This document shows positions 4,528 to 16,895 of a DNA stretch of 20,153 bases, piece by piece. Numbering within the stretch: position 1 is the stretch's first letter; each line of letters opens with the position of its first letter. Below the pieces are notes generated by a model, which was not told the origin of the DNA, ran no database searches, and saw nothing but the letters and a program-made list of their open reading frames with translations. The translations under genes and the position numbers were made by a program. Source of the stretch: a virus; the IMG/VR virus record IMGVR_UViG_3300046804_001651, positions 1 to 20,153 of that record. One strand, given 5' to 3'.

Positions 4528-4717
4528 CGTCGAAATGCTCCAAGTTTTTTGCGAGGTCAAGTAAGTACATCTCCACGTTGGTGAGGCCTCGAATCTCACC
4601 ACACATGTATCTATAGTCCTCGTAGCTTTTAGCCGCGCCTGAAGCGGCTGCTTCGGATAACTGCGTGCGTCTGGCACGCAACTCCTGTAAAACTACTTCA
4701 ATGACTTTGTTCATCAT
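4520..4717 (-). CDS. Small conserved phage protein between portal and GroES genes (65 aa)
   Basis: A helical, charged 65-aa protein with the central pattern YEDYRYMCGEIRGL and an acidic C-terminus. It starts by an ATGA overlap with the portal stop (ATG at 4717; a second ATG follows directly) and ends inside the GroES-like gene, so all three genes are translationally coupled. The YxxYRxxCGxIxGL pattern is one I associate with short uncharacterised proteins next to portal genes of podoviruses. Function unknown; a head-assembly helper is possible from position alone. Confidence 0.65.
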   Translation of the reverse strand: MMNKVIEVVLQELRARRTQLSEAAASGAAKSYEDYRYMCGEIRGLTNVEMYLLDLAKNLEHFDDD

Positions 4718-7194
4718 TCACCTTTTTTGGGAGGTCTATTGGCTTGTTGCATTAGCTGATGTTGGCGCTGTTGATGGCCTTCATGTCGCTTTTGTAAAAC
4801 TTGAATACCTTGACGGAAGCCTTCTCTTTCCTGCTCCGCTTGCAAACGATCTTTGTCGTTTATGTGTTTCATAGCCATGTTGGCACCAGCAATTTCTTGC
4901 TGTGACTTGATGCGTTCTTTTTCGACCTCGATCTGCGCTGCTTTGAGTTCTGCGTCTGCGGCATCTTTGTCTGCCTTGCGCTTCTGTTCGGCCTGTTTGA
5001 TAGCCAACTCTTGCATCTGCATCTGAATGACAGGGTCTTGCATCTGTTGCTGTGCTTGCTGCTGTTGAGCTTCTTGCTGATGTTGTTGTAGAAGTTGCTG
5101 CGATGCTTGTGCTGCCATCTGAGCAATCTGAGTCTCCATCTCTTTTGGAATCTCTTGTGCATCATCCTCGTCGTAGTCAGGAATCTGCATACCCATCTGC
5201 TGCTCGATCTGCTTCTTATATTCAAAGCCTAGGTGCTCTGTAATATGTGCTTGCATAGCAGCCATCAATGCTTGTGCGTTGGGGTCTTGACCCATCACGG
5301 ATTGAATCTTCGGGTCTTGCATTGCTGATTGGTGTACAGCGATGTGTGCTTGGTGATCTTGATAGTAGAACGCCTTAACAGGTTTGCCTTTCAGCACGTT
5401 CATGTTCTCTGTTACTGGATCACGCGGACGCTGATCGTCTGGCATCGGTACAAGCTTCTGTGCATTCTTAATACCCAACACATCTAACATCTGACGATGT
5501 AGCAGTGGCATGTCATACAACTGAGGTGCGCTCTGTGCTAGTTGCAGTACCGCTTGATACTGAACAACCTTTTGCGACATCGTTGCTGCGTTAGGATCAG
5601 ATACAGGAATGACGTCTACTTGGTCATAGTCTGACTGCTTAACTTGGCGATCACCTGTCTCTGGCTGATAAGAATAATCTTCAGGTGTGTAGTCACGAAT
5701 GATGTCTTTTAACAGACGTAGTTCTTCGTGCATCGAGTAGTGGATACGAGCTTGAACCGCTGACATAATCTTGAGCGTACGCTCTAAGATAGCTAGCGTT
5801 GTACCCACAGGTGAGTTAGCCGACATATCACTAACTTGCAGATCAGCCGCACTTGCGAAGCGACGACCCTCGTCAATGATTTGATTCATCAACGATGCTA
5901 AAACTTGCGATGGTTCTTTGTATGGTAAGGGGAGGATGTTGTCCCTAATACTTCCACTCGGGACATCGACATCTCTAAATTCTCCCGGAGTAATTGGGGT
6001 GTCATCGCCTTTAACTCGGAGGCCTCTAGATTTAAGCCCACCCGGAAGGTTCGACAAGGTTCCTGCATCAACCAGTTGGCGCAGAATGGAAGTTCCAGAT
6101 TTAGCATACGCACCGATTAAATGAATGAGGCCAAAGCAATAGAAGCCAAAGCCGGGGATGTAACCGTAGTGAACGAAGTGATTGCGTTTGAGTTTTAGTT
6201 TGTCGTCTGGTTGCCAATTACGACGAATAGCCAGCACCTTCTGGCTTGCCTTATCTATAGTGACGATATATGGCAGTGCTATATCATCCTCGTCTTCGTA
6301 ACCGGGCAGATTAAGATTAACCTGCATCTCAAGAAGTTTGTAACGGTCATCAGTTGTTGCTCTGAAGCCCATCTTCTCTGCGATCTTCTTCTCTACTTCG
6401 TCTAGTGTATTACTTGGTTCACCTAAGTCTATATCACGATAGAAGCCATCAACTTGCAAACGACGAATTTCGTTTTCTGTTTTACGCATCACATGTGTGA
6501 CACGATCTGCTGTTCTTAAGTCTGATGTACCGTAGGGCACAACAACATCTTCTGCGGCTACATAGATAGATACCTGACGACCTAATGATGGATCGTAATA
6601 AACTTTCTTGAATGCGTTACCTGACAGACCCAAGCCCCACAACATACGCTCGTGTTCTGGACGATACTCAGGCATTTCTTCCGTCAAGCGATAGTTCATA
6701 TCTGCTTGTACGCGTTCCGCCGCATCCTTTTTCTCTGGCGTTTCTTTACCAATGATCTTAGTCTTGACAGGCCCCGCTGCTGGAAACGTCTCCATAATCG
6801 TTTCACTTTGGAACTTAACAAGCGCCTCTGATAGGAGGGGATGCGTAACACCACAAGCACCCGCCCACGGCTCCGTTCTTTCTTCAAGCTTCATCCCCAA
6901 CAGATCAAGGCCATCGACGTAAGTCTGCAACCAATCCTTACGTGAACTGATGTCATCATCAAAGTCACCCAGCAACTCGCTTGCTAACAGAGACAACTCA
7001 GCATCATCCATCTCTTCAGCCAAGTTAGCATCAAAGTCATCCTCGTTCGGATCACCTTTGCGAATCTCTAACTCAAACCCATCGTTACCTATAGTGACTG
7101 ACTCTGGGTCTTCTATCTCTATATGTAAGTCAGAATCTTCCGCCTCTTGATCCAAGCCTAGCGGCGCTGCGTATAAGCCTTTCTCGATACTCAT
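4714..7194 (-). CDS. Portal protein (P22-type, podovirus-like)
   Basis: The 826-aa protein forms the dodecameric ring through which DNA enters and leaves the head. The first 80 residues are acidic and probably disordered. A conserved portal-like block follows (about 105-145: RTEPWAGACGVTHPLLSEA, then FPAAGPVK). The wing and stem region contains GFGFYCFGLIHLIG and a segment with RQLVDAGTLSNLPGG. The C-terminal ~150 residues are a Gln/Met-rich, then Lys/Glu-rich helix with long Gln runs, like the helical barrel of P22-type portals. The start at 7194 is preferred over an upstream in-frame codon at 7227: GAGGA at 7201-7205 is 6 bases away and the upstream extension would overlap the oxygenase gene. 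The next gene overlaps its stop as ATGA. Confidence 0.9.
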   Translation of the reverse strand: MSIEKGLYAAPLGLDQEAEDSDLHIEIEDPESVTIGNDGFELEIRKGDPNEDDFDANLAEEMDDAELSLLASELLGDFDDDISSRKDWLQTYVDGLDLLGMKLEERTEPWAGACGVTHPLLSEALVKFQSETIMETFPAAGPVKTKIIGKETPEKKDAAERVQADMNYRLTEEMPEYRPEHERMLWGLGLSGNAFKKVYYDPSLGRQVSIYVAAEDVVVPYGTSDLRTADRVTHVMRKTENEIRRLQVDGFYRDIDLGEPSNTLDEVEKKIAEKMGFRATTDDRYKLLEMQVNLNLPGYEDEDDIALPYIVTIDKASQKVLAIRRNWQPDDKLKLKRNHFVHYGYIPGFGFYCFGLIHLIGAYAKSGTSILRQLVDAGTLSNLPGGLKSRGLRVKGDDTPITPGEFRDVDVPSGSIRDNILPLPYKEPSQVLASLMNQIIDEGRRFASAADLQVSDMSANSPVGTTLAILERTLKIMSAVQARIHYSMHEELRLLKDIIRDYTPEDYSYQPETGDRQVKQSDYDQVDVIPVSDPNAATMSQKVVQYQAVLQLAQSAPQLYDMPLLHRQMLDVLGIKNAQKLVPMPDDQRPRDPVTENMNVLKGKPVKAFYYQDHQAHIAVHQSAMQDPKIQSVMGQDPNAQALMAAMQAHITEHLGFEYKKQIEQQMGMQIPDYDEDDAQEIPKEMETQIAQMAAQASQQLLQQHQQEAQQQQAQQQMQDPVIQMQMQELAIKQAEQKRKADKDAADAELKAAQIEVEKERIKSQQEIAGANMAMKHINDKDRLQAEQEREGFRQGIQVLQKRHEGHQQRQHQLMQQANRPPKKGE

Positions 7195-7196
7195 GA

Positions 7197-7742
7197 TTAT
7201 TCCTCGTAATATGTATAGGCCCAGCACACGGCGGCGTATCTGACACCACGGGTTACTGGAGTCACACGGTGTTCGGCTTTTGCATCGAACACAACTATGT
7301 CCCCCTGATTCTTTAGGAGGTTGTCGCTTTTGTCTTTAATCTGTAGCAGCCCACCTTCAAACTCTGATGGGTCGTTCAAGAGCATCACTAGTGATACCCC
7401 TCTAACCTTTCCGTCTCGTGGCGGCAGCACGTCGTTGTGCCACATGTAGTGCCCACCCTCGCCGTATCTAATGATCTGCACGACATCAAAGTCACAGATG
7501 GTCTTGACCCACTGACCTTGCCTCTCGCCGTCTATCAAGTAGTTCTTACACACTGAACCTATAGGTGACATCAAGTCTTGCGACACGATACTAGCCCTGC
7601 GGAGTATCTTAGATACTTCAGCGCCTTCATCCTTGTACACTGTAGCGTCCTGCGCCACAGCCCAATCTATCGAGCCTTTGACGTAGTCACAGAATGCCCG
7701 TGGCATCGCTTTCTCGTAGTACATACAGGTGAAGTTAGACAT
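7197..7742 (-). CDS. 2-oxoglutarate/Fe(II)-dependent oxygenase (prolyl 4-hydroxylase-like)
   Basis: The 181-aa product carries the complete facial triad of the family: H102 and D104 in YMWHNDVLPP, and H158 in AEHRVTPV. The 2-oxoglutarate-binding Arg is R168 in RGVRYAAVCW. This HRVTPVxRGxR layout is typical of the P4Hc/PKHD group. The domain fills the whole protein with no extra modules. Such enzymes hydroxylate protein side chains or nucleic acid bases using O2 and 2-oxoglutarate; the substrate here cannot be read from sequence. The start ATG at 7742 overlaps the previous stop (TGATG). It sits inside the packaging/head operon, so late expression and a virion or host-protein substrate are plausible inferences. 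Confidence 0.88.
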   Translation of the reverse strand: MSNFTCMYYEKAMPRAFCDYVKGSIDWAVAQDATVYKDEGAEVSKILRRASIVSQDLMSPIGSVCKNYLIDGERQGQWVKTICDFDVVQIIRYGEGGHYMWHNDVLPPRDGKVRGVSLVMLLNDPSEFEGGLLQIKDKSDNLLKNQGDIVVFDAKAEHRVTPVTRGVRYAAVCWAYTYYEE

Positions 7743-7969
7743 CAGATGTCCTTAAATGTATGCACGGGTACCTTGCGCACTTCTACTATGGTGCGTCGGG
7801 CGCAAAGCTCTTCACGCGTAATCTTGAACGGGTTCTTTTCAAACCATTCGTCCACATCCTCTTTAGTCGTTACGTACGGCGTCCTATCCGCCGTTTTTAG
7901 CGTTTGTAATAACTTGCGGTTGGCCTTTTTAACCCGCCACCAAAACTTAACTGTCTCTAAAAAACGCAT
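7742..7969 (-). CDS. Hypothetical protein (75 aa)
   Basis: A small basic protein with a strongly cationic amphipathic N-terminal half (residues 1-30 with KFWWRVKKANRKLLQ) and a mixed-charge C-terminal half containing DEWFEKNPFKITREEL. It joins the large terminase gene upstream (TGATG overlap at 7969) and the oxygenase gene downstream (TGATG at 7742), so it is firmly embedded in the operon and likely translated. I do not recognise the family. The basic amphipathic N-terminus could contact nucleic acid or membrane, which is speculation. Confidence 0.6.
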   Translation of the reverse strand: MRFLETVKFWWRVKKANRKLLQTLKTADRTPYVTTKEDVDEWFEKNPFKITREELCARRTIVEVRKVPVHTFKDI

Positions 7970-9495
7970 CAGTAGTACGCCGCTCTCTTGTGTGATTTAA
8001 AGAACCTAGGCTCATCTGGCTCGTCACTCGGCAGGCGTATGAAGCCCCCTGCGCGGAACCGCATCAATGCTAATGTTGTCGCATCCACCAAGTCATCATG
8101 CTCGCCTGACGGGAATGACGCTACCTCGTCAATTAACTCTTCAGCCCAGCGTGTCTCAGGAACCCAGACTTTACCACTAGCTATCAAGTCAGAGACACTA
8201 TTTAAGCGACTTATCTTGTCTTGTCCCTTACCCGGTGTAAACTCTTGTACAGGGATACCCATTGCACGAAACTCATAAATGAGAGGACCACCTGTCGCCT
8301 TCTTTTCTATAAGTACCCCGTCTGGCTCCCACTCCTTGTAGTGTTCGAACGCTTTTTTCTTAAGCTCGACCCACTCTAGGCGTTCTTTGTAAGAATTTAG
8401 CAGTATCAGGTTAGGCTGGTCGTTATCTTCTGGGTTGTACCAGACACCCCACGTCGTACAAGCTGAATAGTCCGCCCGTGTGTGCTTCTCATGCGCCGTA
8501 TCCCACGTCTGCAAGATATAGTCACAGTATGGCGGGTCATCTTTCTCCCAGATTTTCCACCATTCACGCTTAACAATCGCCGAATTGTCCGAGGTTGGCT
8601 GTTGTTGGTACTGCGCCATCCACTTACTGTTAGGAAGTTCGGTTCTTAACGCATCAAGCTCGTTCATCGACCAAAACTCAGGCCATAGCGGGTTGCCGCT
8701 AGGCAGGATTGCAGGAAACTCAATGATTTCCCACTCGTCCCCGCCTCGCGCAGCGCTTGCTTTAACAACTTGACCTGTTAAGTCACGTAATGACCACCTA
8801 GTCATCACTATAACAATGGCTCCGCCCGGCTGGAGACGCTGACGCGGACCTGACGTGTACCACTCGTACACCTTGTCGTATATATCTGGGTTAACTTGGG
8901 CCAAAGCGGCCTCTTGTTCGCTGTGCGGGTCGTCAATTATCAGAATATCTGCGCCCTTACCGGTCACAGCACCGCCCACACCGATAGCGAAGTAGTCACC
9001 ACCCTTGTTTGTGTTCCATCGACCGGCTGCTTTTGAGTCAGTTTGCAGCGAAACACCCGGAAAAATGCGGGTATATACCTCGGAATCTACCAAGTTACGT
9101 ACTTTTCGACCAAAACCGACCGCTAATTCGGCTGTATGGGAGGTCTGAATGACCTTTTTGTGTGGGAATTTACCTAAAAACCACGCTGGAAGCAGGTAAG
9201 ACGCGAATTCTGACTTGGTATGACGGGGTGGCATGTTGATTATCAGCCTCTTACACTCCCCACGGGCTACTCGCTCGAACGCTTCAGCCATTCTGCGGTG
9301 GTGTCTGCCCCCAATAAACGTAGGCCAGACCTCATGGACGAAATCCAAGAACTTAGTTTGTGCGCCTTCCTTGCGTTTTAGCTCTTGCAAGGCCTCTAAT
9401 TCATACAAAAGCTGGCGTTGCTCCGCCTCGCTAAGCAAAGGCAGTATCTTGGGTATGTCTTTTAGGTTGACGTTATTGATTATTGGTTGGGTCAC
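7969..9495 (-). CDS. Terminase large subunit
   Basis: This 508-aa packaging motor protein has both expected domains. The ATPase has Walker A MPPRHTKS (88-95), Walker B ADILIIDDP (182-190) and the coupling motif VMTRW (230-234). The C-terminal RNase H-like nuclease has acidic residues in TWDTA (D332), VLIEKKATG (E397) and EHDDLVDATT (D467/D468/D471). It cuts concatemeric DNA and pumps it through the portal. The start is GTG at 9495, overlapping the preceding gene's stop as GTGA, with only a weak GGTGGGG-type ribosome site. This suggests dependence on coupled translation. Length and motifs are complete, so the gene looks functional. Confidence 0.95.
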   Translation of the reverse strand: MTQPIINNVNLKDIPKILPLLSEAEQRQLLYELEALQELKRKEGAQTKFLDFVHEVWPTFIGGRHHRRMAEAFERVARGECKRLIINMPPRHTKSEFASYLLPAWFLGKFPHKKVIQTSHTAELAVGFGRKVRNLVDSEVYTRIFPGVSLQTDSKAAGRWNTNKGGDYFAIGVGGAVTGKGADILIIDDPHSEQEAALAQVNPDIYDKVYEWYTSGPRQRLQPGGAIVIVMTRWSLRDLTGQVVKASAARGGDEWEIIEFPAILPSGNPLWPEFWSMNELDALRTELPNSKWMAQYQQQPTSDNSAIVKREWWKIWEKDDPPYCDYILQTWDTAHEKHTRADYSACTTWGVWYNPEDNDQPNLILLNSYKERLEWVELKKKAFEHYKEWEPDGVLIEKKATGGPLIYEFRAMGIPVQEFTPGKGQDKISRLNSVSDLIASGKVWVPETRWAEELIDEVASFPSGEHDDLVDATTLALMRFRAGGFIRLPSDEPDEPRFFKSHKRAAYY

Positions 9496-9695
9496 ACCGC
9501 CACCCCACCAGCAGATTTAGGGCACGGCATCCCATTCCCATGCCCGTTTGGTTCCCCGCAGATAAAGCATCTGTACTGACCAAATATAGAAGGCGACCTG
9601 ACCGGGGCGTACTGAGGCAAAAAAGGGTTCTGACTTAACACTTCCTCAAAAGTGCCGTCGTCGTAGAACACAACAACTTTACTTATCTTTCTCAT
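9492..9695 (-). CDS. Small Cys/His-rich protein between the terminase genes (67 aa)
   Basis: The N-terminal half reads as a short beta unit (MRKISKVVVFYDDGTFEEVL). The C-terminal half holds CFICGEPNGHGNGMPCPK, a CxxC followed by HxN and another Cys, suggesting a small zinc-binding knuckle. The start at 9695 is chosen over in-frame ATGs at 9707 and 9716 because a GAGGGGG run lies just upstream; it overlaps the small terminase stop by 17 bases. Its own stop overlaps the GTG of the large terminase. Placement between the terminase subunits suggests a packaging accessory, but that is inference from position. Confidence 0.6.
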   Translation of the reverse strand: MRKISKVVVFYDDGTFEEVLSQNPFLPQYAPVRSPSIFGQYRCFICGEPNGHGNGMPCPKSAGGVAV

Positions 9696-10290
9696 CGTCC
9701 CCCTCATTGATCTCATCTAGTAGTGCACGGGGTTCATCCTCGATAACACCTAACTCTTCGTCCAGATTGTCTGCAATGGGGGTTACGTCTACTACGGTCG
9801 CATTAAGAAGCCTTTTTACTCGTTCTTTAATCGCTTCTTCTAGGTCGCTAGACGTCTTGTGGTTGATGGTGATTTCACTTCGTTCAGTGAAAAGACCTAT
9901 GTCTGAGTGTTTGCCTAGTAACTCTAGGGCTTTAAGTTCGTATCGCGGGTCCCCGCAGTTAGCAATTTCCATCAGTTTTGAGGTGATGGCGGAGCGCATC
10001 TCGGCGGCATCGGTAGCTACTTGGTTGGCATAGCTTCGTAAGAATAATGCGGCGGCGCTTGCTGTACTGGGTTGCTTTAGTGCGTGTTTGGCAACATGAC
10101 GATTTGCAGCTTTGAACAAATCTAACGTCTTGTCTATGTCGTCCTTCTCGATCTCGATGGGTGCACCGAGTTCTTGCAGTAAGTCCGCTGTATTTGCAGC
10201 GACGACTACAGTCTCGTGGAAGTTTTTGGCTTCCTCGGTTTCTAAACTGTAAGGGACGGCATGGCCCCCTGTTGGCTCAATATTAACCAT
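9679..10290 (-). CDS. Putative terminase small subunit
   Basis: A 203-aa, mostly helical acidic protein is encoded just upstream of the large terminase. The block YELKALELLGKHSDIGLFTE, followed by RSEITINHKTSSDLEEAI, resembles the C-terminal part of small terminase subunits that recognise phage DNA and recruit the large subunit. An N-terminal helix-turn-helix is not obvious to me. The start ATG at 10290 lacks a clear ribosome site; a promoter-like box at 10297-10307 would put transcription start at or next to the ATG, so a leaderless mRNA is possible. An in-frame TTG at 10368 is a weaker alternative. Function rests on gene order plus the C-terminal pattern. Confidence 0.65.
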   Translation of the reverse strand: MVNIEPTGGHAVPYSLETEEAKNFHETVVVAANTADLLQELGAPIEIEKDDIDKTLDLFKAANRHVAKHALKQPSTASAAALFLRSYANQVATDAAEMRSAITSKLMEIANCGDPRYELKALELLGKHSDIGLFTERSEITINHKTSSDLEEAIKERVKRLLNATVVDVTPIADNLDEELGVIEDEPRALLDEINEGDDEKDK

Positions 10291-10296
10291 GCGGGG

Positions 10297-10307
10297 TATA
10301 TACCACG
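10297..10307 (-). promoter_or_regulatory. Candidate promoter immediately upstream of the small terminase gene
   Basis: The minus strand reads CGTGGTATATA: an extended -10 (TG one base before the TATATA hexamer). TTTACT sits 17 bases upstream as a possible -35 (4 of 6 consensus). Counting from the hexamer puts +1 at about 10290, the first base of the ATG. It shares CGTGGTATAT exactly with the box near 10721. Inferred from motif only. Confidence 0.45.
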
Positions 10308-10369
10308 TATTTAGGAAGCAGTAAAGGTTGGTACTCGCTGCACTGGAAGATAAAACCGGATTCCGCAAT

Positions 10370-10740: not shown

Positions 10741-10935
10741 GGAGGTTGGGACTCCTACCCGGGGGGTGTTGCTATATTGTGTTTTTGCTAAGCTTTGTAA
10801 GAAGAGTTGTGGGGGGTGGTATTGACTGTGCAAATTAGAGTGTAAGTCGGGACTTGGGACTCCTAAGCTATGGCTTTGGGGGGTCGGGGGGTCTGACCCC
10901 GTTAAAAATGAGTTTTTTCCGATTCCATTTTTAAC
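10741..10935. other. Non-coding G-run region with 12-bp direct repeats and a long inverted repeat
   Basis: TTGGGACTCCTA occurs at 10746-10757 and 10854-10865. Runs of six G follow each repeat and also occur near 10811. A GGGGT-CTG-ACCCC hairpin lies at 10888-10900. Directly after it GTTAAAAATG (10901-10910) and CATTTTTAAC (10926-10935) form a perfect 10-bp inverted repeat with a 15-base loop. No open frame with a ribosome site covers the region. It may contain a bidirectional transcription barrier, operator or replication signal; none can be proved from sequence. Confidence 0.45.
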
Positions 10936-11356
10936 CTGATTTTCTTACAAAGCATGTAGAGTGCGAAGCAAGTGGAGCAACAACGCACCACGCAGCGCAA
11001 AGCAGGTTACATGTCGCGCTTAGTTCGATGCACTAAGGTGTTCTGATTAAGTAGCAACAAGTAAGCGCAAGTTCTTACACAATTCGGGCGGTAATCAATC
11101 CGCAAAGTTAGATGCAAGTAACTTAGAGTAGTGACGATGCACGATGCCTTATGGCGGTTATGCAAATAGGGAAGGGACGCCCTTAGTTCACGAAGGTTAT
11201 CAGTATGCTAGACGGTCTAACTATAAAACTTATTCAGCGCATAAAGCATAGCAAAACTTTATGAGCACGCGCTGACAGACCGCGACATAGTCTGTCTATA
11301 TGCAAGCGTACTCACTGAGTATTCTTGTTTATAACTTAACTTTTTAGGGGAACATT
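10936..11356. other. Non-coding leader/control region before the rightward genes
   Basis: No supported gene. Three overlapping short stems occur: GTGCG/CGCAC (10961-10988), AGCGC/GCGCT (10994-11020) and CTTAG/CTAAG (11019-11037). AAGGG/CCCTT lies at 11172-11184. The odd palindrome TAGACGGTCTA (11209-11219) is followed by TATAAA. A perfect 7-bp inverted repeat GACAGAC/GTCTGTC (11274-11296) lies about 60 bases before the first rightward gene. No tRNA can be folded here. Confidence 0.45.
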
Positions 11357-11824
11357 ATGTCAAACACAATCGCTCAATTCTCGTCAACTGAAGTTGATTT
11401 CGCTGTTGCTGCTGTTATCGTCGAAGGCAAAACGCTAACAGAGAAAAAGTTGTCAGTTGTTAATCAGGCATCATCCGCTGCATTGGCTTACATGTGCAAT
11501 GTTAAGGGTAAAGTCGGTAAAGCAGCACGCGAGAATATCTCGCAACATGGCGAGCAACTTATAGCTACGCAAGCACGCTCAGGCAACTATAAGCCACTCG
11601 CGGATGCAATCGCGTCAATCACTGGACAATCTCTAACAATACCGAACCGCGCCACATACGAGACACTCGCCGGACGCTTTGCGGATGCATTGCAGGACTT
11701 ACCACGCGAAGGCTACGCACTATCTAAGAAAGACAACACACTCAAGCCAACTGCAAAACGCTTAGCATTGATGCAAGTAATTGGTTTAATCAGCGAAGTT
11801 CAGGCTATCGCTGCAGCTTTGTAA
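11357..11824 (+). CDS. Hypothetical protein, first rightward gene (155 aa)
   Basis: The ATG at 11357 follows AGGGGAA at good spacing. The protein is Ala-rich and predicted helical, with blocks KAARENISQHGEQLIATQAR, NYKPLADAIASITG and a basic stretch SKKDNTLKPTAKRLALMQV near the C-terminus. It has no Cys pair, Walker motif, signal peptide or membrane segment. I do not recognise the family. Its stop codon lies inside an iteron (11819-11826), and iterons flank it on both sides. As the first gene of the rightward arm inside the repeat region, it is a reasonable candidate for a protein that binds those repeats, but nothing in the sequence proves DNA binding. Confidence 0.75.
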   Translation: MSNTIAQFSSTEVDFAVAAVIVEGKTLTEKKLSVVNQASSAALAYMCNVKGKVGKAARENISQHGEQLIATQARSGNYKPLADAIASITGQSLTIPNRATYETLAGRFADALQDLPREGYALSKKDNTLKPTAKRLALMQVIGLISEVQAIAAAL

Positions 11825-11906
11825 GATTGTTAGAATTGCCAAAGGTTAATCTTACAGCGTAAGTCCTTGATTCTATTGAATAAAGTGGCTTTGTAAGACT
11901 GTAAGA
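11819..11906. repeat. Iteron cluster A with inverted arrangement
   Basis: TTGTAAGA and TTGTTAGA abut head to tail (11819-11834). TTGTAAGA and CTGTAAGA abut the same way (11891-11906). Between them lies an opposed TCTTACAG (11850-11857). The outer and opposed units form a 9-bp inverted repeat, TGTAAGATT (11820-11828) with AATCTTACA (11848-11856). It begins within the stop codon region of the 155-aa gene. Confidence 0.65.
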
Positions 11907-12004
11907 TAAAAAAAGCAGTGATTTGGAAAATCGAGGTCACTTGACTTCTTACGCAACTGCATCACCCATGCACCAATGCAATTTTGGGTCGTCGTTATCT
12001 ATCG

Positions 12005-12050
12005 TCTTACAATCTTACAATCTAACAATATAATATATTTATTCTTACAA
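12005..12050 (+). repeat. Iteron cluster B: three exact tandem 8-bp units plus one
   Basis: TCTTACAA (12005-12012), TCTTACAA (12013-12020) and TCTAACAA (12021-12028) follow each other without spacers. A 14-base A/T-only stretch and a fourth unit TCTTACAA (12043-12050) come next. Tandem repeats beside an A/T-rich segment are the layout of iteron-type origins, where the A/T segment is the unwinding site. Confidence 0.7.
12006..12034 (+). promoter_or_regulatory. Candidate rightward promoter overlapping iteron cluster B
   Basis: A consensus TATAAT lies at 12029-12034. Exactly 17 bases upstream is CTTACA (12006-12011), matching 4 of 6 bases of TTGACA. The -35 lies in the first iteron and the spacer is the next two, so a protein bound to the iterons would block this promoter. 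Confidence 0.45.
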
Positions 12051-12084
12051 AGTAGTATCTATGCGGGTTTTCAGAGCATCACCA

Positions 12085-12093
12085 TGATATACT
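12085..12093 (+). promoter_or_regulatory. Candidate rightward extended -10 promoter
   Basis: TGATATACT has the extended TG and a 5-of-6 -10 hexamer (TATACT, 12088-12093); no good -35 is seen. An iteron-like TTGTTAGA (12095-12102) covers the predicted start site. It would drive the small genes from 12159 onward. Confidence 0.4.
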
Positions 12094-12158
12094 ATTGTTA
12101 GAATCACCCTTTGCATCTTCTTACAAACCCTGCTTTCTCTTACACTCAAAGGCACGCT

Positions 12159-12344
12159 ATGACTACGCACATTCTTACAAAGGGTGCACTCGGCATCCCT
12201 GCACCTGCACTCAAACTCGGCACATGGAATAAACCGCATCAAGGCGGTCACACACCAATGCCATATCGTCAACATTCTAACAACTGGACTCGCGCCAACA
12301 AGTTCGCTCGTGTTCCCTCAAATCTTGCACCGTGGAGAGACTAA
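12159..12344 (+). CDS. Hypothetical small basic protein (61 aa)
   Basis: The ATG at 12159 follows AAAGG (12148-12152) at 6-base spacing; an upstream in-frame start at 12111 lacks a ribosome site and would cross iterons. The protein is rich in His, Pro, Arg, Asn and Trp (for example GTWNKPHQGGHTPMPYRQHS) and has no Cys and little predicted regular structure. Two iterons lie within it (12173 and 12276). The next gene starts 2 bases after its stop with GGAGAG inside this frame, so the pair is coupled. Function unknown. Confidence 0.55.
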   Translation: MTTHILTKGALGIPAPALKLGTWNKPHQGGHTPMPYRQHSNNWTRANKFARVPSNLAPWRD

Positions 12345-12346
12345 TA

Positions 12347-12511
12347 ATGAAAGACTCAACCTTGCTATTACTCGGCGGCACATTACTCAACCTATACACA
12401 ATCGCGGCATGCATGATGGACTTACCGACTCTGCTTTGCTGTGCTCTAGGTTTCGGCGGCATCTTTCTTACAGCAGGTGCAATACACACAATGATCTTCC
12501 ATCGCAATTAA
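12347..12511 (+). CDS. Small membrane protein (54 aa)
   Basis: The ATG at 12347 is preceded by GGAGAG (12334-12339) at 7-base spacing, two bases after the previous stop. The product is mostly hydrophobic. Segment 1 (about 4-24: LLLLGGTLLNLYTIAACMM) and segment 2 (about 27-50: LLCCALGFGGIFLTAGAIHT) would form two membrane-spanning helices joined by a short DLPT turn, with a basic end HRN. Its role could be host-membrane modification, superinfection exclusion or lysis control; none is indicated specifically. An iteron (12466-12473) lies within it. Confidence 0.6.
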   Translation: MKDSTLLLLGGTLLNLYTIAACMMDLPTLLCCALGFGGIFLTAGAIHTMIFHRN

Positions 12512-14160: not shown

Positions 14161-15234
14161 ATGGCATCACTAAACTTCGGCAAGTCAGTATCACTCAAAC
14201 AAGCAGCCAAGCTAATCGGTACTGTAAGAAACAATCGCTTCATGTTGCAAGGCGAGCCTGGCATCGGTAAGTCTAGCCTTATGGGTGCGCTAGCAGATAT
14301 GTACCCCGACTATCACCTAGCCTACATCGACGTGCCGAACATGGACTTGGGCGACATCTGCATGCCCGTCATTGACCATGACTCTAAGACTACTAAGTAC
14401 TACCCCAACGCACGCTTCGGTATCCACACAGGCAAGCCGAGCATCATCATGTTGGACGAGTTTTCGAAAGGCTCACCGCCCGTAATCAACATGCTGCACC
14501 CGCTACTCGAAGCACATAACCCTCGCCTCGGTGACTTGCCATTGCATCCCGACAGTATCGTGTTCATGACAGGCAACCTAAGTACTGACGGCGTAGGTGA
14601 CAATCTCAAGGCGCATACACTTAACCGTGTGTCTAAGGTCGTAGTGCGCAAGCCTGACGGTGACGAGTGGACAGAGTGGGCTATCGCTAACGGCGTAGAA
14701 CCCATCGTTATCGCTGCTGCTCGTGAGTACAAGGGCGATTGGTTTGCGTCCTACTTAGATCACCCCGAGGGCTTGCCTAAAGAGGCGGTTGTGTTCAACC
14801 CTAAGATGCCAACGACTGCGTACGTATCAGGTCGTTCGTTAGAGCGTGCGTCCAACATCATCAAGCATCGTGACGTGTTCGACAGTGACAGTCTTATCGC
14901 TGCGTTGTCAGGCACTATCGGCGAGAAAGCATCGCGTGACTTAGAAGCGTACATCACCTTCGCAGATCAGCTACCTACGTGGGAAGCAATCATCAAGTCA
15001 CCAACAACTACACCTATACCAGAGGGTGCAGGTGCGTGTGCATTGGTAGCGTTCAACGCTATCGCTAAGGTAGAGAAGGACACCATGACCCCATTCATGG
15101 ATTACATATCTCGCTTCGCTCCCGAGTGGCAAGCATGCTTCGCAATCAACATCGCTAAGTCACCACGTCAAAAGATCGCGTTCGGTTGCAAGGCGTTCAG
15201 TGATTGGGTAGCTAAGAACGAGGACTTACTGTGA
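14161..15234 (+). CDS. MoxR-type AAA+ ATPase
   Basis: The 357-aa protein has the full ATPase core. Walker A is GEPGIGKSS (31-39), Walker B IIMLDE (95-100), sensor 1 MTGNLS with N139, an arginine-finger-like R156 in HTLNRVSKV, and a sensor 2 Arg in VSGRSLERA (R225). The layout matches the MoxR/CbbQ/NorQ class, whose ATPases work with VWA-domain partners to remodel or activate target proteins. The partner is apparently the HExxH-VWA protein two genes downstream. AAGGAGC precedes the ATG; the next gene starts by GTGA overlap. The ATPase activity is well supported; the target in the host or phage is unknown. Confidence 0.9.
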   Translation: MASLNFGKSVSLKQAAKLIGTVRNNRFMLQGEPGIGKSSLMGALADMYPDYHLAYIDVPNMDLGDICMPVIDHDSKTTKYYPNARFGIHTGKPSIIMLDEFSKGSPPVINMLHPLLEAHNPRLGDLPLHPDSIVFMTGNLSTDGVGDNLKAHTLNRVSKVVVRKPDGDEWTEWAIANGVEPIVIAAAREYKGDWFASYLDHPEGLPKEAVVFNPKMPTTAYVSGRSLERASNIIKHRDVFDSDSLIAALSGTIGEKASRDLEAYITFADQLPTWEAIIKSPTTTPIPEGAGACALVAFNAIAKVEKDTMTPFMDYISRFAPEWQACFAINIAKSPRQKIAFGCKAFSDWVAKNEDLL

Positions 15235-15443: not shown

Positions 15444-15723
15444 TTACTTCTATGACTACGGGTGGCAGTACGAGGACAACAAAGATACTGCGTACCGCAC
15501 AGGTAAGGAGAACAGACACTATCGTGTGTTCAAGCACTACAGAGATGGACGCATAGAGGGTGTGACTGAAATCATGTCCAGAGATGATGCAATAGAGATG
15601 TGCAAACAAATCCAACTGCTTGACCCCGTAGGTCAGATGGATTGGGTAGATGATTGGCACGAAGCAGAGCAAGAGAGGTTAGCACAACGTAACGATTACT
15701 TAACAGCAAAGGGGAGACTATGA
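15436..15723 (+). CDS. Hypothetical protein (95 aa)
   Basis: GAGGG (15426-15430) favours ATG 15436 over the ATG at 15433 or the GTG at 15430; all overlap the preceding gene. The product is rich in Tyr, Asp and Arg (YFYDYGWQYED, HYRVFKHYRDGRIEGVTE) followed by a helix with SRDDAIEMCKQIQLLD. The strand-then-helix layout faintly resembles the small LTxxE-motif proteins downstream. It ends in an ATGA overlap with the HExxH-VWA gene. Function unknown. Confidence 0.65.
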   Translation: MSDYFYDYGWQYEDNKDTAYRTGKENRHYRVFKHYRDGRIEGVTEIMSRDDAIEMCKQIQLLDPVGQMDWVDDWHEAEQERLAQRNDYLTAKGRL

Positions 15724-16895
15724 CTGAAGAGAGAAAGCTAGCGAAGGTAAAGATCGCAATCATGCGGAACCCTAAGTTCGCATTCTGGTCGGGCATCTTG
15801 ATGGTCGGTAAGACTAGCATCGTAGATGGACTACCAACAGCAGCAACCAACGGGCGCGATGAATTGTATGGGCGTGAGTTTGTAGCCAAGCTGAACGAGA
15901 AGGAACTGGCATTTGTCATTCTTCACGAGGCTATGCACAAATGTTATCGACACTTAACTACGTGGCGTAAGTTATGGGAAGAAGAACCCATGCTAGCCAA
16001 TGCAGCTATGGACTACGTAATCAATCTTGAGTTGCATGACATGGCTAAGGCAACAGGCTTACTTGCTTTCCCTGTGATTGACGGTAAGCAGCTAGGTCTA
16101 CTCGATGAGAAGTATCGAGGCATGAATACCAAGCAAGTGTTCGACTTACTCAAGCAGCAATGCCAAGACGGTAACGGTGAAGGCAATGGGTTTGACGATC
16201 ACGATTGGGAGGGTGCGGGTAAGTTGTCTGACGAAGAGAAAGAAATGTTAGGCAAAGAGATTGACCGAGCTATTCGTCAAGGTGTACTTGCAGAGAAGCG
16301 TGCAGGTGTAGGTGCAGGGGGGCGTAGCCTTGAGCTTGAAGATTTACTCAACCCACAAGTTAACTGGCGCGAGGTACTGCGCGAGTATGTCAAATCAATA
16401 TGCAGTGGAAAGGACGCATCATCATGGCGCAAAGTCAATCGACGTTTCCTGTCAAGCGACACGTATATGCCTACGTTGGTAAGCGAAAGGGTAGGTCACT
16501 TAGTCGTAGCCGTGGATACATCAGGCTCTATTGGGGGTCGTGAGTTAGCTAACTTCTTAAGCGAAGTTAAGTCTATAGCAGAGGAGGTAACACCTGACAA
16601 GGTTGACTTGCTCTATTGGGATGGGGAGGTAGCAGGGCATGAAGAGTATGACAGTAGTACGGTGGCTAGTATCGTTGAGTCAACTAAGCCGCGTGGTGGT
16701 GGAGGCACTTCGCCTAGTTGTGTTAGCACGTATCTTAAAGATAAGGGCATCAAGCCTGAGTGCGTCATCATGCTCACAGACGGATATGTTGGTAACGATT
16801 GGGGTGAGGGTTGGGAAGTACCTGTACTCTGGACGATCGCTGGTAACAACAGTGCCGTTGCACCTAATGGACAAACTATTCACATCAATGACTAG
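15720..16895 (+). CDS. HExxH metallopeptidase-like / VWA (MIDAS) protein, DUF2201-type
   Basis: This 391-aa protein joins two domains. The N-terminal part has HEAMHKCYRH (69-78), an HExxHxxxxH zinc-site pattern, and then NAAMDYVIN (94-102) with conserved polar residues, as in DUF2201 N-terminal putative metallopeptidases. A Gly/Asp-rich linker (about 148-200) follows. The C-terminal VWA fold has MIDAS residues VDTSGS (D266, S268, S270), Thr in GGGGTSP (T330) and D354 in MLTDGY. VWA proteins with an intact MIDAS bind metal and partner proteins, and act with MoxR ATPases. Here all key residues appear intact, so both metal sites may be active. Start overlaps the previous gene (ATGA). Substrate and role in infection are unknown. 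Confidence 0.88.
   Translation: MTEERKLAKVKIAIMRNPKFAFWSGILMVGKTSIVDGLPTAATNGRDELYGREFVAKLNEKELAFVILHEAMHKCYRHLTTWRKLWEEEPMLANAAMDYVINLELHDMAKATGLLAFPVIDGKQLGLLDEKYRGMNTKQVFDLLKQQCQDGNGEGNGFDDHDWEGAGKLSDEEKEMLGKEIDRAIRQGVLAEKRAGVGAGGRSLELEDLLNPQVNWREVLREYVKSICSGKDASSWRKVNRRFLSSDTYMPTLVSERVGHLVVAVDTSGSIGGRELANFLSEVKSIAEEVTPDKVDLLYWDGEVAGHEEYDSSTVASIVESTKPRGGGGTSPSCVSTYLKDKGIKPECVIMLTDGYVGNDWGEGWEVPVLWTIAGNNSAVAPNGQTIHIND

Follow-up and report, generated by a model that had tools for sequence, protein, structure and literature searches.

The locus and its genes

The window, by which we mean the whole stretch of DNA analysed, is an entire IMG/VR fragment of 20153 bases. Its structural genes run leftward and its early genes rightward. 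PHROG matches identify the portal gene (4714–7227), the gene of the terminase large subunit (TerL, 7969–9495) and, both rightward, those of a MoxR-like ATPase (14161–15234) and a VWA-type protein (15720–16895), and a 56-bp stretch shared with the capsid gene annotated in phage DSL-LC04 places the major capsid protein at about 1053–1961. That stretch, in the capsid gene, was the single match obtained when the window was compared by megablast with phage records, and the named relatives are distant by terminase (60% for phage DSL-LC04, 50–54% for the Pelagibacter phages HTVC027P and HTVC023P). Searches of the window returned no Rfam families or tRNAs, and its probable terminase small subunit (TerS) has no PHROG or Pfam match. 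The features that concern us here, centred on a field of 8-bp iterons, are as follows.

9679–10368, minus strand: probable TerS, so named from its position beside TerL; a neighbour outside the proposed origin
10795–10802, minus strand: outlying exact iteron, terminase side
10943–10950, plus strand: outlying exact iteron, terminase side
11357–11824, plus strand: orf155, gene adjoining the field, of the same type in relative G003
11819–11834, minus strand: left iteron pair, TCTTACAA (11819–11826, exact) abutting TCTAACAA (11827–11834), overlapping the orf155 stop codon
11850–11857, plus strand: iteron TCTTACAG, counted as a one-mismatch copy
11860–11872, minus strand: match to the IHF consensus WATCAANNNNTTR, in the window AATCAAGGACTTA
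11891–11906, minus strand: tandem pair TCTTACAA (exact) and TCTTACAG with an 8-bp step, beside the IHF site; equivalent pair in about 30 related records
12005–12028, plus strand: TCTTACAA TCTTACAA TCTAACAA, three units in direct succession, pointing the opposite way from the left pairs
12007–12062, no strand: stretch with the highest A/T content per 40 bp anywhere in the record (34 of 40), a probable DNA unwinding element, with an A/T-only core at 12029–12042
12043–12050, plus strand: iteron TCTTACAA
12095–12102, minus strand: iteron TCTAACAA
12119–12145, plus strand: iterons TCTTACAA (12119–12126) and TCTTACAC (12138–12145)
12159–12344, plus strand: small conserved ORF of 61 aa, read from the sequence
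12173–12180, plus strand: exact iteron within a small ORF
12276–12283, plus strand: one-mismatch copy TCTAACAA within a small ORF
12466–12473, plus strand: one-mismatch copy TCTTACAG within a small ORF

Between the left and right iterons, at 11918–11943, there is also an imperfect inverted repeat, GTGATTTGGAAAATCGAGGTCAC; the hairpin looks conserved by eye, and a similar arrangement with a GGAAAT-like loop occurs in several relatives.

Number and arrangement of the iterons

The original prediction, made from the window alone, described nine exact and about ten one-mismatch copies of the repeat in this region and two exact copies elsewhere, and counting on both strands gives the same figures (9, 10 and 2). 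TCTTACAA is the commonest 8-mer across the whole window, in which 11 exact copies occur on the two strands against a mean of 0.87, and a maximum of 4, in 100 dinucleotide shuffles. Nine of the 11 lie within 10795–12180, the other two being at 2846 and 8387; the ten one-mismatch copies in 10795–12473 are at 11073, 11632, 11827, 11850, 11899, 12021, 12095, 12138, 12276 and 12466. The tandem arrays had been called exact, which is slightly overstated, since the only exact tandem is the two-unit one at 12005–12020, and the abutted units at 11819–11834, 11891–11906 and 12021–12028 carry one mismatch each. The reported A/T-only stretch of 14 bases between iterons is real (12029–12042) and falls inside the 40 bp where the record reaches its highest A/T content. 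Copies do lie within small coding genes, as had been noticed (12173–12180 in the ORF at 12159–12344, 12466–12473 in the ORF at 12347–12511); the dense iteron core, 11825–12158, is non-coding.

A repeat of this kind could be an accident of composition, the noise of A/T-rich non-coding DNA, and the region is indeed the most A/T-rich of the record. We regard this as extremely improbable and in effect refuted: the dinucleotide shuffles show real enrichment, nine other records have the repeat at the corresponding locus, and the layout has survived a change of repeat sequence, as described in the next section. The original prediction had staked itself on enrichment over shuffled sequence and on conservation in close relatives; the enrichment is 11 against 0.87, the relatives carry the same repeat at the same locus, and the prediction thus passed its own refutation test.

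Conservation of the field and a second repeat lineage

Relatives were retrieved via TerL and orf155. Those with the same repeat have TCTTACAA clustered where it is clustered in the window, with nine of ten exact copies falling within 342 bp in G001 (50 kb); in G003 (30.6 kb) the same proportion, nine of ten, occupies about 360 bp. The genes that flank the field vary: a phrog_1448 protein is encoded beside it in G001 and an orf155-type protein in G003 and the window, and the 61-aa ORF stands on the right side of the core in the window and on its left side in G003. We rejected orf155 as the reader of the iterons because G001 carries a different gene in its place with the field unchanged. Outside the field, a single TCTTACAA stands directly upstream of a Gam-like gene in both of these relatives (G001:40796 and G003:18836).

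Most relatives whose TerL is 72–82% identical have no TCTTACAA cluster, and in the same interval carry TAACAT/ATGTTA repeats instead. Reading about 30 records side by side, we recognised a shared block that starts with the IHF consensus WATCAANNNNTTR, in either orientation, followed after 6–20 bases by a tandem pair TGTNA...TGTNA with 7–8-bp steps, usually with a run of T or A; next come about 100 variable bases, an opposed iteron tandem pair and an A/T-rich tract, in some cases TAATAATAAT. On the window the block maps to 11860–11872, 11891–11906 and 12005–12028, with the tract at about 12007–12062; the equivalent of the pair at 11891–11906 in the other lineage is TGTTA-n-TGTTA. The layout is thus common to two lineages with different repeats (TCTTACA and TAACAT). 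A further repeated element, approximately ACCAGTTCYCTRTGCGGSGGTAGGA, is present in at least one copy per phage in the interval between TerS and moxR of G011, G017, L132, L144 and L169.

Opposed repeat arrays resemble the layouts of plasmid centromeres, and the field might accordingly be a centromere-like partition site. The genes examined in the window and its relatives, however, included none recognisable as ParA- or ParB-like, nor was an integrase seen there, and we consider partition very improbable.

The same 8-mer also occurs in a 69-kb phage contig, G035 (L258, L269), in which homology to the window was undetectable for TerL and initiator alike. It has two loci with TCTTACAA arrays, 37810–38190 and 65437–65723. 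At each of them a pair of arrays facing opposite ways, both of six TCTTACAA units and almost entirely with 8-bp steps, surrounds about 190–290 bp of A/T-rich DNA. The loci have the look of an origin or partition site that has been duplicated and that employs this 8-mer independently.

IHF consensus sites, the A/T-rich tract and GC skew

Across 29 contigs, the fields contain 32 sites matching the IHF consensus (the consensus of E. coli, which need not be the host), or 1.40 per kb, whereas the remaining 948 kb contain 48, or 0.051 per kb, so that the fields are 27 times denser; in 100 shuffles of the fields the mean was 1.7 sites and the maximum 5, against the 32 observed. At least one site lies in the field of 24 of the 29 contigs, comprising 10 of 10 with the window's repeat (TTACA type) and 14 of 19 with the other, and five contigs have none there. 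The A/T-richest 40-mer of the record lies inside the field in the window and in G002, G003, G027, G036, G037 and G021; six of the seven relatives listed have it there, the exception being G001. Where the position of the field is known, the minimum of cumulative GC skew is 0–2.8 kb from it, but GC skew does not discriminate an origin here, because the minimum coincides with the switch in gene direction.

Terminase small subunits can bind repeats together with IHF, as at lambda cosB, and the field, with its IHF consensus sites, is situated towards the terminase end of the genome, which invites its reading as a packaging site (cos or pac). The contig ends of relatives, however, pile up before the start of TerL, at upstream distances of 500–1000 bases in 24 of 69 contigs (mostly at 622–872), which corresponds to the 5' end of TerS (about 10117–10367 in the window), 1.5 kb from the core of the field and with orf155, a separate gene, between TerS and the field. 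Given this position of the pile-up, an indirect sign of where the genomes end, and since TerS does not follow the type of repeat (residual −3.0 in the comparison described below), we think a cos or pac function improbable. The pile-up by TerS itself (loci L001–L080) may represent a genome terminus or a pac site, or else a variable region at which assembly broke off.

A candidate initiator outside the window

The absence of a recognisable initiator from the window, already noticed in the original prediction, is explained by the record being a fragment, whose 20 kb stop short of the replication genes. In relatives, the complete early regions examined, including those of G036 and G041, carry a gene for a protein of 943–953 aa. 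Relatives have this gene about 17–23 kb rightward of the field; in G001, for example, the field is at 25.5 kb and the gene at 42.4 kb. Profiles assign the protein PrimPol and DUF927 domains. Its AF2 model has a middling pLDDT of 73, with parts of residues 610–712 poorly modelled. The N-terminal PrimPol (model residues 3–209) aligns to 6zp9 with a VIA-align Z of 19.3. The helicase half has its best match, in structure and sequence alike, in SCCmec Cch (5dgk): the profile E value is 4.4e-12, Foldseek with the model gives E 2.6e-14 for Cch and 2.1e-11 for SaPIbov1 Rep, and VIA-align of residues 376–944, a span that runs on to the C-terminal end, gives Z 18.8 for 5dgk and 17.3 for 8tch (SaPIbov1 Rep), although the overall rmsd is large.

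The C-terminal domain of this protein has a winged-helix-like order of elements at residues 865–930 of the predicted model, and its wing reads STTRRMTTGTKI in phages with TCTTACA and mostly NKRMSKGMK in those with TAACAT; in G050 the wing and domain are intermediate, yet the repeat is TAACA. After removal of background identity, identity in this domain is 5.9 points higher for pairs of phages with the same repeat, a value reached in 3 of 1000 label shuffles, and this residual is the largest among 15 proteins or domains (4.3 for a 300-aa SSB-like protein, 3.2 for moxR, a positive value for orf288, 0.0 for the primase domain and −3.0 for TerS); an earlier run with another baseline gave 6.9 points and 3 of 2000 shuffles. 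We stress that the label shuffles ignore the tree and that the repeat data hold essentially one evolutionary switch (TTACA versus TAACA), so that the comparison does no more than suggest that the iteron type and the C-terminal domain have changed together. The contig G035 lends the pairing no support, because a homologue of the C-terminal domain is undetectable there despite the long exact TCTTACAA arrays. We consider it likely that the reader of the iterons is this primase-helicase of about 950 aa, encoded beyond the 20-kb fragment.

Possible operators and the ribbon-helix-helix protein

The field could alternatively consist of cooperative operator sites through which the divergent early region is controlled by a transcription regulator of the phage, for which a ribbon-helix-helix (RHH) protein is a possible candidate. 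An RHH-like small protein is encoded in G001, G003, G027 and most TAACA phages with long contigs, with its gene upstream of a DUF3310 gene in G001, G003, G011, G012 and G017; an AF2 monomer, a weak model (pLDDT 63), shows an extended strand followed by two helices, and the strand residues differ between the repeat types. Units that abut with 8-bp steps, direct as well as inverted, suit RHH arrays, the TAACA relatives have palindromic dyads of similar half-site beside sigma70-like promoters TTGAC-N-TGTGGTATAAT, and a CTTACA-17-TATAAT match overlaps iterons in the window. The RHH protein was at first our favoured reader, its use alone as a query of viral contigs having led to L129/G027, which was then shown to have a TCTTACA field.

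It was weakened as a candidate by two phages whose orf288 (78%) and moxR (65–66%) are the most similar to those of the window. One of these, G036 (55.7 kb, TerL 88% identical to that of the window), has a TCTTACA field, an IHF site and a complete early region, but no RHH homologue by profile search or in its gene list; in the other, G041, whose contig starts after its field, the protein was likewise not found, and an RHH protein is therefore not a necessary reader. Nor does it track the dyads, since phages with CCTCACA dyads keep the same RHH strand though the dyad has changed. The promoter-like matches in the region (4 found) equal the mean of shuffled sequence (4.0 expected), and an overlap of iterons with the −35 box, considered for the window, was discarded as the spacing differs between relatives. 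We therefore regard an operator field as unlikely, while keeping it as a rival.

The view that all these repeats form a single family was wrong. The dyads CCTAACA-n-TGTTAGG, CCTCACATTGTGAGG, CCTAACGCGTTAGG and TTTCATACCGTATGAAA, found near promoters in TAACA relatives, constitute a separate class, because their sequence changes independently of the core iterons (phages with CCTCACATTGTGAGG keep ATGTTA cores); no palindromic dyads were seen in the window's lineage. A conserved early promoter TTGAC-N-TGTGGTATAAT with lineage-specific palindromic operators lies between TerS and moxR in G011, G017, G012, L132, L144, L168 and others, and proteins resembling helix-turn-helix repressors in the early region of some relatives (G015:2553–3275 and G036:25736–25954) are candidate readers of such operators.

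Proposed function

Four observations support the reading of the field as a replication origin: its layout is conserved, it has IHF sites, it includes an A/T-rich tract, and relatives encode a credible initiator. Of the three roles that the original prediction had offered for it (origin, partition site or operator), the first is thus favoured, partition is unsupported here and the operator is the rival retained. We propose, with a probability of roughly two in three, that the field is the iteron replication origin of a tailed phage, bent by IHF and melted by an initiator that combines a PrimPol with a helicase like SaPIbov1 Rep and SCCmec Cch. In such an origin the 8-bp iterons, in opposed groups, would be binding sites for the phage initiator, the protein of about 950 aa in which a PrimPol is fused to the SaPIbov1 Rep/SCCmec Cch-like AAA+ helicase (DUF927), and its winged-helix-like C-terminal domain would read the iteron. 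IHF would bend the DNA beside the tandem pair at 11891–11906, and the loaded initiator would melt the A/T-rich tract at about 12007–12062, where replication would start. The analysis itself shows the enrichment, the conserved layout, its association with IHF consensus sites and the A/T maximum, the occurrence and the fold of the protein among relatives, and a change of this domain and of the repeat from one lineage to the other; the binding of the iterons, the melting and the origin activity, as well as the presence of the same initiator in the window's own phage, are inferred.

More tentatively, and with the odds in our judgement somewhat against it, the proposal may be extended to a large group of phages of about 60–66 kb. 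These would start replication from an iteron origin by means of IHF and a single initiator, PrimPol plus SaPI-Rep-like helicase, and would fall into specificity groups in which the iteron (TCTTACA or TAACAT) and the C-terminal wing have been switched together; certain lineages would have faster-changing palindromic operators overlying the region. The iterons might also double as primer start sites for the fused primase.

For tailed phages seen only in metagenomes it is rare that an origin can be placed on the genome, and here the layout, the association with IHF and the credible initiator make of an anonymous repeat field a directly testable origin. The two natural versions of its specificity, TCTTACA and TAACAT, permit swaps of initiator and iteron. 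If the proposal is true, the self-loading initiation of SaPI Rep and Cch extends to large phages.

Comparison with known systems

The Rep helicases of SaPIs recognise iteron origins with their C-terminal domain, and these origins lie directly downstream of rep (PMC7581432). The system proposed here resembles the SaPIbov1 replicon in its self-loading DUF927-type initiator helicase, the relatives' model aligning to 8tch over residues 376–944; it differs in the fusion of the helicase to a PrimPol, in an origin about 17–23 kb from the gene, in its 8-bp iterons and IHF consensus sites, and in being part of the genome of a tailed phage and not of an island. The helicase half of the relatives' protein is likewise similar to SCCmec Cch (5dgk), although the PrimPol fusion is found only here; in the part of the literature available to us we did not find a description of the origin of Cch, as opposed to Cch2.

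The alpha protein of phage P4 unites a primase and a helicase with an origin-binding domain at the C-terminus, by which 8-bp iterons are read (ori1/crr type I). The likeness to the present case lies in the single protein with primase and helicase and in the length of the iterons, whereas the iteron sequence is unrelated and the helicase here is of the Cch/SaPI Rep kind; IHF sites are not known to be a feature of P4.

The origins of the iteron plasmids pSC101 and R6K work with IHF (reviewed in PMC4980987), and share with the field their iterons, A/T-rich unwinding element and IHF site. Plasmid iterons are longer, however, and the plasmid Rep initiators are without primase or helicase and work with the host's DnaA (compare PMC4980987). 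The PrimPol of phage NrS-1 has a helicase-like C-terminus, as here, and likewise an 8-nt recognition sequence, TTTGGTTA (PMC8718748), but, in the part of that source available to us, this sequence is a primer-start signal on single strands, and opposed groups of iterons and IHF sites are not described.

Two kinds of regulatory array differ from the field: the RHH operator arrays of MetJ and omega in that an RHH protein is not encoded in every phage with the field, and the stoperators of mycobacteriophage L5, which are asymmetric sites dispersed between genes throughout the genome, in that 9 of 10 exact copies in G001 lie within 342 bp. With origins of the iteron type, by contrast, the field shares short repeats clustered at one locus, an adjoining A/T-rich tract and an IHF consensus, the last being a common though not universal feature of such origins.
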